DNA from: Halostella salina
GTDB taxonomy: Archaea; Halobacteriota; Halobacteria; Halobacteriales; Natronoarchaeaceae
DNA length: 64,000 nt
Assembly (NCBI RefSeq): GCF_003675855.1
Contig: NZ_RCIH01000004.1
Span: forward strand, 1 to 64,000
Direction: 5' to 3'
Shown: in pieces, positions 2,571 to 9,038 of the stretch
How positions within the stretch are numbered: the first letter of the stretch is position 1
How the letters are laid out: each line of letters begins with the position of its first letter
Notes under the pieces: generated by a model
Told to the model about the DNA's origin: nothing
Seen by the model: only the letters and a program-made list of their open reading frames with translations
Databases searched by the model: none
Program-made: the position numbers and the translations under genes

Positions 2571-3932
2571 GTGCGCCTCGTAGAGGTCATGATCCCGGCG
2601 GGCAAGCGCGAAGCCGTCCTGCGGACGCTGGACGACGAGGGGATCGACTACGCCGTCACCGACGAGACGAGCAGCCGCGAGTACACGGCCGTCGTCTCCT
2701 TCCCCCTGCCGCGCAACGCCGTCGAGCCGGTGCTGGACCGCCTCCGGGAGATCGGCATCGACGACGACAGCTACACCATCGTCATCGACGCCCGGACGGT
2801 CGTCTCGCGGCGGTTCGACGCCCTGCAGGAGCGCTACGACGACGAGGACGAGTCCGACCAGCGGATCGCCCGCGAGGAGGTCCGGACGGAGGCGGCGGAA
2901 CTGATGCCGGACCTGCGGACGTACCTGACACTGGCGGTCGTGAGCGCCGTCGTCGCCACCGCGGGGCTGTTGCTCGACTCGCCCGCCGTCGTCGTCGGGT
3001 CGATGGTGATCGCGCCGGTGCTCGGGCCGGCGATGGCGACCAGCGTCGGCACCGTGGTCAACGACGACGACCTGTTCCGGACCGGGATCAAGCTGCAGGC
3101 GGTCGGTTTCACCGTCGCGGTCGTCGCTGCGACGGCCTTCGCCGTGCTGGTGAAGTCGCTGTACCTCGTCCCGCCGGGACTCGACGTGACGGCGCTCGGG
3201 CAGGTGCAGGGGCGGCTCTCGCCGGATTTCCTCTCGCTGGCGGTGGCGCTCGGGGGCGGCATCGCGGGCGCGATGAGCCTCGCCGGCGGCGTGTCGGCGG
3301 CGCTGGTCGGCGTGATGATCGCCGCGGCGCTCATCCCGCCCGTCGCCGCCGTCGGCATCGGCGTCGCGTGGGGGCTGCCGAACGTCGTGCTCGACGCGAG
3401 CGTGCTGGTGTGCGTGAACCTGCTGTCGATCAACCTCACCGCGCTGGCGGTCCTCTGGTACATGGGCTACCGGCCGGAGCGGTGGTTCGAGGCCGACGAG
3501 GCCCGGTCGAAGACGCTCCGTCGGGTCGGGACGCTGCTGGTCGCCCTGCTCGTCCTCTCGGGCTTTCTCGCCGGCGTGACGCTCACCTCGTTCCAGACGG
3601 CGACCAGCGACCGGGAGATCCGCGACGCGGTCGACGGCGTCCTCGCGGAAGGGGAGTACGAGCGCCTCACGCTGCTGGACACCCGGATAGAGCGAACCGG
3701 CGGACCGATCGGGTCCGAGCCGGCCGCGGTGGTCGTCACGGTGGGCCGGCCGGCCGGCGAGTCGCACCCCGACCTCGCCGACCGGATCCGGGACCGGATC
3801 CGGGACCGGACGAGCGCGGACGCCACCGTGCAGGTGCAGTTCGTGGCCGTCCAGAACGCCGACGCGTCGTCGTCCGACCGGGTCGGGCGGGGGAGCATCG
3901 GAGCGGGGACGCCGCGCGTAGCACGAGCCTAG
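2571..3932 (+). CDS. DUF389/TIGR00341 family membrane protein, copy 1
   Basis: This 453-residue protein starts with GTG ([11 protein letters not shown]). Residues 1-85 form a soluble regulatory-looking domain with V-D-E/I-D-Y pattern; residues about 115-325 hold five to six membrane helices with the family signature [17 protein letters not shown] and [11 protein letters not shown]; a C-terminal extracytoplasmic domain follows. Function of DUF389 is unknown; the repeated membrane unit suggests transport or sensing. It is followed 91 bases later by a paralogue. A 12-base tandem repeat (3781-3810) encodes [10 protein letters not shown] near the end. Confidence 0.85.
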
Positions 3933-4023
3933 CGGTCGGGCGCGGCCGGTAACCGTCCGTTTCGCCGCGGACGCGTCGGTAACGACCCCGGGGGCTCTTT
4001 TGCCGCGGCGGCGTGGACGCCCT

Positions 4024-5379
4024 GTGCGTCTCGTTCAGATCCGCGTCCCCGACGACCGCCGCGGGGACGTGACCGACGCCCTCGACGACGAGCACGTCGA
4101 CTACGTCGTCCTGCGCGACGAGAGCGACGCCGGCGGCTGGGTCGTCGAGTTTCCCCTCCCGACCGACGCCGTCGGGACGGTCCGCGACCGCCTTCGGGAG
4201 GCCGGGTTCCCGGAGGACGGGTACACGGTGATCGGGTCGGCGGAGGCGGCGATGACGCCGCACTCGCAGGAGCTGGCGGACCGGTTCGCCGACGACTTCG
4301 ACCCGCTGACACCGCCGGAGCTCACGTCGAAGGCGAGAGACCTGAGCCGCGACCCGGGGTCGTACGTGGCGATGATCCTCCTGAGCGCCGTCATCGCCAC
4401 CGCCGGCCTGCTGGTCGACTCGCCCGCCATCATCGTCGGGTCGATGGTGATCGCCCCGCTCGTCGGGCCGGTGTTGACGACCGGGGTTGGGGCGGCGCTC
4501 GGCGACACGGAGATGTTCCGCAACAGCCTCTGGCTACAGATTGCCGGCGTCGTCGCCGCCGTCGCCGGAGCGTGGCTGTTCGCGTTCGCCCTTCGTGCCG
4601 GCGGCTTCGTCGCCGACGACCTCGCGGTCACGTCGATCGAACTCGTCGCCCTGCGCCTCTCGCCGAGCGTCTTCGCGATGAGCGTCGGCCTCGCGGCCGG
4701 GGTCGCGGCGGGGTTCGGGCTGACGACCAAGGGACCCACCTCGCTCATCGGCGTGATGATCGCCGCGGCGCTCATCCCGACGGCCGCGACGACCGGCATC
4801 GCGATGGTGTGGGGGTACTACGTCGTCGCCGTCGGGACGCTGTTCCTGCTCGTCGGCACCCTGATCGCGATCAACGTCGGCGTGTACGCGCTGCTGTGGG
4901 GACTGGGATACCGCTCCGGCGAGTGGCACACCCTGCTCTCGGCGGGGACGACGCGGGGGACCGCGGCGGTCGTCGCGACCGTGATGCTGGTCGTCGCCAC
5001 GGTCGGCGTGGCCGCCGTCGGCACCGGCCAGCAGGTCGCGTTCCAGCAGTCGACCACCGCCGCCGTGGAGGACGTGGTCGGGTCGGGGGAGTACGCGGAC
5101 CTGCAGGTCGTCTCGGTCCGGCCGGAGTACACCGGCGTCGGGTCGGCCGGGTCGCCCGAGACCGTCACCGTCGTCGTCAGCAAGACGAGCAACGAGTCGT
5201 ATCCGGGGCTGGCCGCCGACCTCCGGAGGGCCGTCGCGGCCCGCACCGGCGAACAGGTCACCGTCCGTGTCTCGGTACAGGCGTATCAGGTCGCCCGCGG
5301 CCCGGGCAACGCGACCCGGGAGGGCGTCGTGGTCCGCCCGGTACTCCCGACCGCGCTCAGTCGGGATGATGCGCGATAG
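4024..5379 (+). CDS. DUF389/TIGR00341 family membrane protein, copy 2
   Basis: This 451-residue paralogue of the preceding gene has the same order: N-terminal soluble domain ([11 protein letters not shown]), DUF389 helices with [17 protein letters not shown] and [11 protein letters not shown], and a C-terminal extracytoplasmic domain. I chose the GTG at 4024 over the in-frame TTG at 4000 because it aligns with the start of copy 1 (MRLVEVMIP against MRLVQIRVP). The tandem arrangement suggests gene duplication and possibly a hetero-oligomer. Function unknown. Confidence 0.85.
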
Positions 5380-7331: not shown

Positions 7332-7688
7332 ATGAACTGGCGTGCCGTCGGTATCGGCTTCGTGGTGGAGATCGTCCTCGGCGTGTTCGCCTTCGCCATT
7401 CCGGGCGTCGGCCACGCCGCGGCCGGCCTGATCGGCGGGTTCGTCGCGGGCTACATCGCCGGCGGCGGCCTGCTGTCCGGCGCGTGGCACGGCCTCGTCG
7501 CCGGGGCGCTCGGCGGGATCCTGATCGCGGTCACGCTCGGTCTCGGCGCGGGCGTCATCGGCACGATCGGGCTGGGACCGCTCGGGCCGTTCCTCGGCGG
7601 GACCGTCTTCCTCGTCGCGCTGGTCGTCGCGCTCCTGATGGCCATCGACAGCGCGATCGCGGGGGCGGTCGGCGGGCTGGTGGGATAG
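7332..7688 (+). CDS. DUF5518-type membrane protein
   Basis: This 118-residue, very hydrophobic protein has four predicted helices and repeated small-residue motifs (GLIGGFVAGYIAGG, GALGGILIAV, GAVGGLVG). The pattern of glycine-rich TM segments separated by GAWHGL matches what I recall of the haloarchaeal DUF5518 family; function unknown. It is divergently oriented from the NOG1 gene and stands alone, followed by the compositionally foreign HNH gene. Confidence 0.75.
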   Translation: MNWRAVGIGFVVEIVLGVFAFAIPGVGHAAAGLIGGFVAGYIAGGGLLSGAWHGLVAGALGGILIAVTLGLGAGVIGTIGLGPLGPFLGGTVFLVALVVALLMAIDSAIAGAVGGLVG

Positions 7689-7851
7689 GACACGGCCGGC
7701 GGTGGGGTGACTGCTGCCGAAGTCGTCGGTACTGATGCGTGGCGTCTCCGACATGCTTCAAGCGTTCTGACGGCGAACTGCCTGTGCAGTAGATCTGTCA
7801 GATTGGACGACGTGGCGAAGAGATAAAACCATTCCAACAGAGTGGACTATC

Positions 7852-8643
7852 ATGACAATAACTCAATCAACTCTCAAGGAACTCTGGGGGGCGTCAAAAA
7901 ATGAGTGTGCTCACCCCGATTGTGATATGCAACTTGCTGACCCAGACGGAGATGGTGTTATTGGGGAGATCTGTCATATCCAGGCCCAGAATGAGGGGGG
8001 ACCAAGGTATGATTCATCACTTGACGAGGAAGAGGTTGATTCAGCTTCAAATCTCATTCTTCTGTGCCCCACTCACCATACTGTAGTGGATAAAAATCCG
8101 GAGGACTACTCTTCGCGGGTACTTGAGAGTTGGAAAGAGGAACAACTCACAGAGGGTGATGTAGAAGTACCAGAAACCGATAGTTTGCTTAATGAGTTGG
8201 TCGCCAATACGGAGAGCATTAACGTCGAAGGTGGATCATTCATCGTCACCAATAATCAAATGGGTGGGCAGGTAGCAGATGAGATTACTAACATCGGCCA
8301 GCAACCCCGGCGAATTCCACCTGCAGCACGTCAAGAGATGGTTCAGCAATTGGCCCCGTATGACCCTGGGCCAGTTACTGTGACAGGAATAATGGGAGAT
8401 GGGGAGTCACTCAGATTGGCTGAAGAGATTATGGATGTTCTTGACGAGGCAGGCTGGGACGTAAGTGGTCCCAATCAGGTTGTCCTCAATAGAGCCGTTC
8501 AAGAGATTCAACTAAGGATACCAGAGGATACTGAAGCATTCCGGACACTCGGAAATCTATTTCTTCAGCTTGGATTTAGCTCTGCAGGATACCTTGAAGA
8601 AGAGAAGGAAGGTATCGAGGTTATAGTTGGCTCCAATATATGA
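7852..8643 (+). CDS. HNH endonuclease-domain protein with unknown C-terminal domain, AT-rich, probably acquired
   Basis: This 263-residue protein has an HNH fold at residues 10-95: C19-x4-C24, EICHIQA (H42), GGPRYD, NLILLCPTHH (N67, C72, H75, H76) and VDKNPEDYS, so zinc-ligand and catalytic residues appear intact. Residues 120-150 form a linker with NNQMGGQ and NIGQQ; 172-262 form an alpha/beta domain with MGDGES and DEAGWDVSG. Two 60-base lines counted by hand (8041, 8221) are 43% and 47% G+C, far below the neighbours, and codons end freely in A/T. It is flanked by core genes without tRNA or transposase. A lone defence nuclease is plausible; the C-terminal domain's role is unknown. Confidence 0.8.
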   Translation: MTITQSTLKELWGASKNECAHPDCDMQLADPDGDGVIGEICHIQAQNEGGPRYDSSLDEEEVDSASNLILLCPTHHTVVDKNPEDYSSRVLESWKEEQLTEGDVEVPETDSLLNELVANTESINVEGGSFIVTNNQMGGQVADEITNIGQQPRRIPPAARQEMVQQLAPYDPGPVTVTGIMGDGESLRLAEEIMDVLDEAGWDVSGPNQVVLNRAVQEIQLRIPEDTEAFRTLGNLFLQLGFSSAGYLEEEKEGIEVIVGSNI

Positions 8644-8726
8644 CTGATTGATTATTAGGCCGGCTGTATCTACCATCCAGCACGTACCGACTGTCGCGGA
8701 GGACGAACTGACGAACGGGTACCGGC

Positions 8727-9038
8727 TCAGCGCCGCGTCTCTAGCTCCGCCCGCAGGTCCGCGACGTCCATGTCCTTCATCGCCAGGAGCACGAGCAGGT
8801 GGTAGACGATATCGGCGCTCTCGTGAGCGATCTCCTCGCGGTCGTCGTCCTTCGCCGCGAGGACCAGTTCGGTCGTCTCCTCGCCCAGCTTCTCCAGCAC
8901 CTCGTTTTCCCCCTTCTCGCTGGTGAACAGCGAGGCGGTGTAGGAGTCCTCGGGCAGGCGCTCCTTGCGGTCCTCGATGACGGCGAACAGCTCGTCGACC
9001 ACGTCGTCCGCGCCGTCCGCGTTCGCGTCCCCGCTCAT
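8727..9038 (-). CDS. hisE: Phosphoribosyl-ATP diphosphatase
   Basis: This 103-residue all-alpha MazG-like enzyme performs the second step of histidine synthesis (PR-ATP to PR-AMP plus pyrophosphate). The motif KLGEETTELVLAAK and, downstream, HESADIVYHLLVLL supply the metal-binding Glu/Asp residues. It is a stand-alone HisE, not fused to HisI. Its ATG overlaps the TGA of the upstream bifunctional-nuclease-family gene (ATGA, 9035-9038), so the two are translationally coupled. Confidence 0.92.
   Translation of the reverse strand: MSGDANADGADDVVDELFAVIEDRKERLPEDSYTASLFTSEKGENEVLEKLGEETTELVLAAKDDDREEIAHESADIVYHLLVLLAMKDMDVADLRAELETRR

Follow-up and report, generated by a model that had tools for sequence, protein, structure and literature searches.

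The window analysed here, a 64,000-nucleotide stretch from the haloarchaeon Halostella salina, contains an open reading frame (ORF) whose product joins an N-terminal HNH nuclease to a C-terminal domain of about 114 residues. We give about an even chance to the reading that this ORF is a horizontally acquired one-gene sensor-effector nuclease devoted to antiviral defence. It is a new domain combination built on a known kind of effector, and the uncurated C-terminal domain is its more novel part.

A foreign gene between DUF5518 and hisE

A sequence-only reading of the window had singled out this ORF as the only gene with foreign base and codon use, and the figures agree. Its GC content at third codon positions (GC3) is 41.4%, against 86.8 ± 10.8% in the other likely genes of the window, a comparison set picked crudely as long acidic ORFs rather than taken from a curated annotation; the next-lowest value among them is 66%. 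This second most unusual composition is that of an ORF at 749-1054, contained in a lower-GC stretch (about 60%) covering about positions 1-2000. The AT-rich block, at roughly 7750-8700, separates DUF5518 (7332-7688, plus strand) from hisE (8727-9038, minus strand), two convergent genes whose 3′ ends face it. Within it, the ORF opens on an ATG at 7852 and its stop codon ends at 8643 (Table 1). The candidate TATA-like box sits about 25-30 nt upstream of the ATG, a position that would fit leaderless transcription.

Table 1. Coordinates of the features described, in positions of the window.
Feature	Position	Strand	Basis or remark
Inserted segment between the DUF5518 and hisE stop codons	7689..8726	.	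congener comparison
Possible archaeal TATA-like box, GAGATAAAAC	7818..7831	+	read from sequence
ORF, 263 aa: HNH nuclease and uncurated C-terminal domain	7852..8643	+	GC 47.5%, GC3 41%
HNH effector domain, residues 1-103	7852..8160	+	PF13391 2.1e-5; PADLOC; PDB
Linker, residues 120-149, two short predicted strands, NNQMGGQVADEI	8209..8298	+	low-confidence model secondary structure
Uncurated C-terminal domain, residues 150-263	8299..8640	+	profile match

In two congeners (G001 and G003) DUF5518 and hisE are separated by just 71-90 bp that hold no gene, and in two genomes of the sister genus (G180 and G244) the order pdxT, hisE, DUF5518 is kept and the interval from hisE to DUF5518 contains no evident gene. 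This empty site in relatives indicates that the source lineage gained the gene, at a place open to insertions. The ORF is a recent insertion and is not vertically conserved at the genus level, so that the single-gene island proposed earlier stands, and the vertical conservation that would have spoken against it is not seen in the relatives checked. A low-GC haloarchaeon, virus or plasmid would fit as the donor, given the 47% GC of the gene.

Other congeners carry different material at this place. In the closest one (G002), the gap between DUF5518 and hisE is about 2.2 kb wide and holds two different ORFs, while in G004 the contigs break in the gap at IS200/IS605-like ends, identified by eye. 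The G002 ORFs (on L023, G002:C1:974000-981000) encode an unassigned 143-aa product (2676-3107) and a 468-aa product with a Tat/lipoprotein-like start (3270-4676). The G004 ends are those of the end of G004:C6 and the start of G004:C1 (L031 and L016). A site with such varied inserts, IS200/IS605-like ends included, could also house a nuclease working for a mobile element, be it in transposition, in competition between elements or as a toxin, rather than for host defence. We find this improbable: no transposase, integrase, terminal repeats or clear target-site duplication was found beside the ORF, no direct or inverted repeats resembling element ends were seen flanking it, and its HNH subgroup is that of defence effectors. 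No partner gene or recognised defence gene adjoins it either.

An HNH domain of the antiphage effector family

Their profile matches place residues 1-100 in the family of HNH effectors that antiphage systems use (CBASS Cap5, ABC-3C, Shedu fusions). HNH_2 (PF13391) matches residues 37-77 with 24.7 bits, above the Pfam gathering cut-off of 21, and the nuclease identity is therefore not a matter of chance. Several PADLOC models match residues 2-100 and end there, namely those of CBASS HNH effectors, HNH-SAVED, SduA and PDC-M68A; E-values against these defence effectors range from 2e-29 (PDC-M68A, the best) to 1e-9. The same stretch is matched by solved Cap5-type HNH-SAVED chains in the PDB, as well as by 9om4 (435 aa), deposited as “HNH endonuclease.” The sequence-only reading had called the gene a candidate defence nuclease with an intact HNH site. 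The PADLOC and Cap5 matches speak for the former, and all the residues that it listed (C19, C24, H42, N67, C72, H75 and H76) are present, with H42, N67 and H76 assigned from sequence as catalytic. In four haloarchaeal HNH proteins, this one included, these residues are invariant except for H75, which is a Cys in one of them. The Cys suggests a zinc-binding role for position 75 and makes H76 the likely third catalytic residue; C19, C24, C72 and H75 would then be the probable zinc ligands.

The nearest HNH relative found is, by sequence identity (about 60%), the effector of a haloarchaeal Avs2. The protein in question, P0003 (1347 aa), is matched by Avs2 models over residues 94-958 (E = 0) and carries its HNH at residues 1-110, which is 61% identical to that of the ORF over 103 aa (55% over 119 aa). 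Within the class, HNH matches occur in 5 of the 391 sampled genomes, the source genome counted, and the two best outside it (G089 and G232) lie in open frames of 1354 aa, P0003 being one of the two. The Avs2-like proteins that carry this HNH at their N-terminus are seen at L026:6750-10793 (G089) and in L027 (G232). The source genome encodes a second HNH protein (L028:6979-7737; G000:C2, around 433035), whose HNH is 50% identical and whose C-terminus is different and unnamed; that C-terminus is common to a protein of G214 (L029:6317-7123).

The plasmid search with the whole protein matched 252 records, centred on the HNH, none of which covers 80% of the query, and full-length relatives were found neither there nor in the viral contigs, the bacterial and archaeal genome contigs or the phages searched. 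One relative, on an Arthrobacter plasmid, joins the HNH to the ABC-3C domain CTD10 within an ABC-3C operon; this operon (L006:4938-10642) lies about 3 kb from an annotated Shedu nuclease gene. A Blastomonas relative also has its HNH in an ABC-3C operon, and a third, on an Enterobacter plasmid, has no evident partner gene but a restriction-modification pair nearby. As the same HNH comes with many different C-termini, it is an exchangeable effector: the comparison shows modules being swapped, in the pattern of one effector paired with interchangeable regulators.

Each known system resembles the ORF only in part. Avs2, an antiviral STAND NTPase, has a similar N-terminal HNH followed by an NTPase and sensor of roughly 1200 aa, where the ORF has its small unrelated domain; the whole protein is 263 aa long and its PADLOC matches include no Avs2 model. 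CBASS Cap5 (HNH-SAVED) shares the HNH family and the C-terminal placement of a regulator, and the SAVED_HNH model matches the ORF at 7.7e-19, but SAVED_HNH models match residues 2-99 only, no Pfam family matches the C-terminal part, and no CD-NTase stands next to the ORF among the flanks and conserved neighbours checked, DUF5518 and hisE keeping their order in relatives. The ABC-3C HNH-CTD10 protein has a similar layout, with an HNH followed by a small C-terminal domain in 262 aa, yet the ORF has no CTD match and its flanking genes are neither a middle component nor an ABC ATPase. The Shedu SduA model matches through the HNH part alone (model positions 18-115 of 326), and the Pfam scan found no DUF4263, the Shedu nuclease domain. 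Finally, the PADLOC candidate PDC-M68A is of similar length (253 positions), but only profile positions 5-106 match and the C-terminal halves differ.

That many HNH relatives work within multi-gene systems such as ABC-3C, while this ORF stands alone, could mean that the effector it encodes depends on a partner from another locus, or is left over from a multi-gene system, and has no activity in the source genome. This seems quite unlikely to us. The frame is intact, with all HNH residues and a full C-terminal domain of its own, and the Enterobacter plasmid relative is likewise without an evident partner.

A C-terminal domain shared with bacteria

Searched against Pfam, PHROGs and NCBIfam, residues 118-263 gave no match of meaningful score, and thus neither a known sensor domain nor the housekeeping family that would have weakened the case for defence; NCBIfam matches to prefoldin and TATA-binding protein were rejected as far below the cut-off. 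The domain carries the motif PR(I/L)...GDGExxxxAxxxxxxLxxAGW...VGS. A DNA pattern built from GDGExxxxAxxhxxxhxxAGW (h, loosely hydrophobic) was confirmed on the window and scanned over the collections, where it recovered relatives in Eisenbacteria (L070), Acidobacteria (L068) and two viral contigs (L064 and L067). L049 is a possible further member. Most matches of a relaxed pattern in viral contigs are to an unrelated phage protein, and an ad hoc consensus of the bacterial domain matched no plasmid; only retrieved sequences serve as evidence here.

A profile of three pattern-found relatives led to L079 in Pseudomonadota, the one true relative in 398 genomes; other profile matches (L080-L082, A2 profile) were rejected as unrelated proteins, Nudix-like or ribonucleotide-reductase-like. 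A five-member profile then added about eleven members in Acidobacteriota, where 9 of 347 genomes match, that of L068 among them. Outside the window, the members are L064, L067, L068, L070, L079 and L085-L095. The domain had been likened to one that recurs in bacterial proteins with other N-terminal parts, and such recurrence is what is found: in the relatives from bacteria and phage contigs it lies at the C-terminus, preceded by a membrane segment at the N-terminus and, in most cases, by a coiled coil. The bacterial members thus share residues 150-260 of the ORF, but membrane segment and coiled coil replace the HNH. In two members (L086 and L093), Asn/Thr/Gly-rich stretches (PGSVQNTGDNVTINQ) directly precede the domain and resemble the linker of the ORF. 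The charges flanking the membrane segments indicate no clear side for the domain, and no evident defence islands surround the membrane-anchored members in the few contexts read by eye.

As the pattern that had selected L068, L070, L064 and L067 came from the window itself, a separate profile was built of members found only through other members, leaving out the window and the pattern-selected sequences. It is only partly independent, since the profiles that found its members included pattern-selected ones. Against the window protein its score is 38.4 bits over residues 150-260 (E 5.5e-14, Z=1), where the best of 2000 shuffles reaches 6.2 bits; masking of the 21-residue search motif lowers the score to 9.0 bits, which is still above the best of 3000 shuffles (5.8). 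Homology of the C-terminal domain to the uncurated bacterial domain is well supported by these profile scores. The profile search found the domain in no other genome of the class among the 391 sampled; a weak match in G174 overlaps a prefoldin-beta-like gene and was set aside as chance.

The domain of the ORF is acidic (16% D/E, 6% K/R, net charge -15), while most bacterial members are not. This composition fits the haloarchaeal cytosol and would suit long residence there rather than a fresh transfer from bacteria.

These features also bear on another possibility, a lone restriction-type nuclease that senses no signal: its C-terminal domain would recognise DNA by modification or sequence, and its HNH would cleave that DNA. 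HNH restriction enzymes that act alone are known, and some of the plasmid HNH relatives lie near restriction-modification genes. We nevertheless hold this to be unlikely, as the C-terminal domain matches no DNA-binding family and its other contexts, behind membrane segments, would be odd for DNA recognition. Its strong acidity points the same way, although haloarchaeal proteins are generally acidic.

Predicted structure of the C-terminal domain

The AlphaFold2 model of the domain, made from a six-sequence alignment, has a mean pLDDT of 61.6, higher in the core, and a pTM of 0.59. It runs helix, strand, helix, strand, short strand, helix, strand, and a second run gave the same order; the full-length model (mean pLDDT 51.5) was too poor to be of use for the HNH part. 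With modest confidence, the C-terminal domain can be described as an alpha/beta fold resembling LytR_C. The best VIA match is Rv0431/VirR (2m5y; Z 5.2, rmsd 3.5, 84 residues aligned, query mean pLDDT 61.6) and the second an orthologue of Rv2700 (Cei) (6q10; Z 5.0, rmsd 3.2, 88 aligned), both Z-scores falling below the level of the tool for clear matches. Rv0431/VirR and Rv2700 are both solo LytR_C proteins (PMC11832169). The order of strands and helices in LytR_C (PF13399) is similar to that of the model, but LytR_C is extracytoplasmic and has no significant sequence match to the domain: PF13399 reaches E 0.02 in 1 of 16 domain members and does not match the window protein. The predicted likeness to LytR_C is a lead only.

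Foldseek found nothing in the PDB that matches the model at E < 0.001. In BFVD there is one strong match, the viral protein A0A516ME84 (188 aa, no known name; E 6.8e-7, probability 1.00, TM 0.62), by which the domain is probably also present in at least one viral protein; A0A516ME84 was not located in the phage collection.

A putative one-gene sensor-effector

In the defence reading favoured here, the HNH would be an exchangeable DNA-cutting effector, as used by CBASS Cap5, ABC-3C and Avs2, and the C-terminal alpha/beta domain would take the place of the sensor of those systems. By analogy with Cap5, the likeliest task of this domain would be to sense a cytosolic signal or to drive assembly. 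At rest it would keep the nuclease silent; binding of a cytosolic signal, or oligomerisation through the domain, would activate the HNH, which would then cut invader DNA or the infected cell's own. A comparable arrangement has been proposed for Cap5, whose HNH dimers would stay off until the neighbouring domain binds its ligand and the nuclease is rearranged (PMC8568899). Both the regulated degradation of DNA and the antiviral role are expected from what is established for these effector families. A broader proposal, which we put forward tentatively, is that the C-terminal domain is an unrecognised cytosolic sensor or signal receiver that this ORF has in common with phage proteins and with the membrane-anchored coiled-coil proteins of bacteria, and that the ORF founds a new single-gene type of archaeal HNH defence.

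The ORF joins an effector known from defence to a domain missing from the curated libraries searched (Pfam, NCBIfam, PHROG). It marks the DUF5518-hisE gap as an insertion site in the genus, and is a further case of HNH effector swapping among haloarchaeal defence proteins. Its fusion to a cytosolic nuclease implies that the domain can work in the cytosol; if the fusion is functional the domain would need to do so, which would hint at the role of its membrane-anchored relatives in bacteria.
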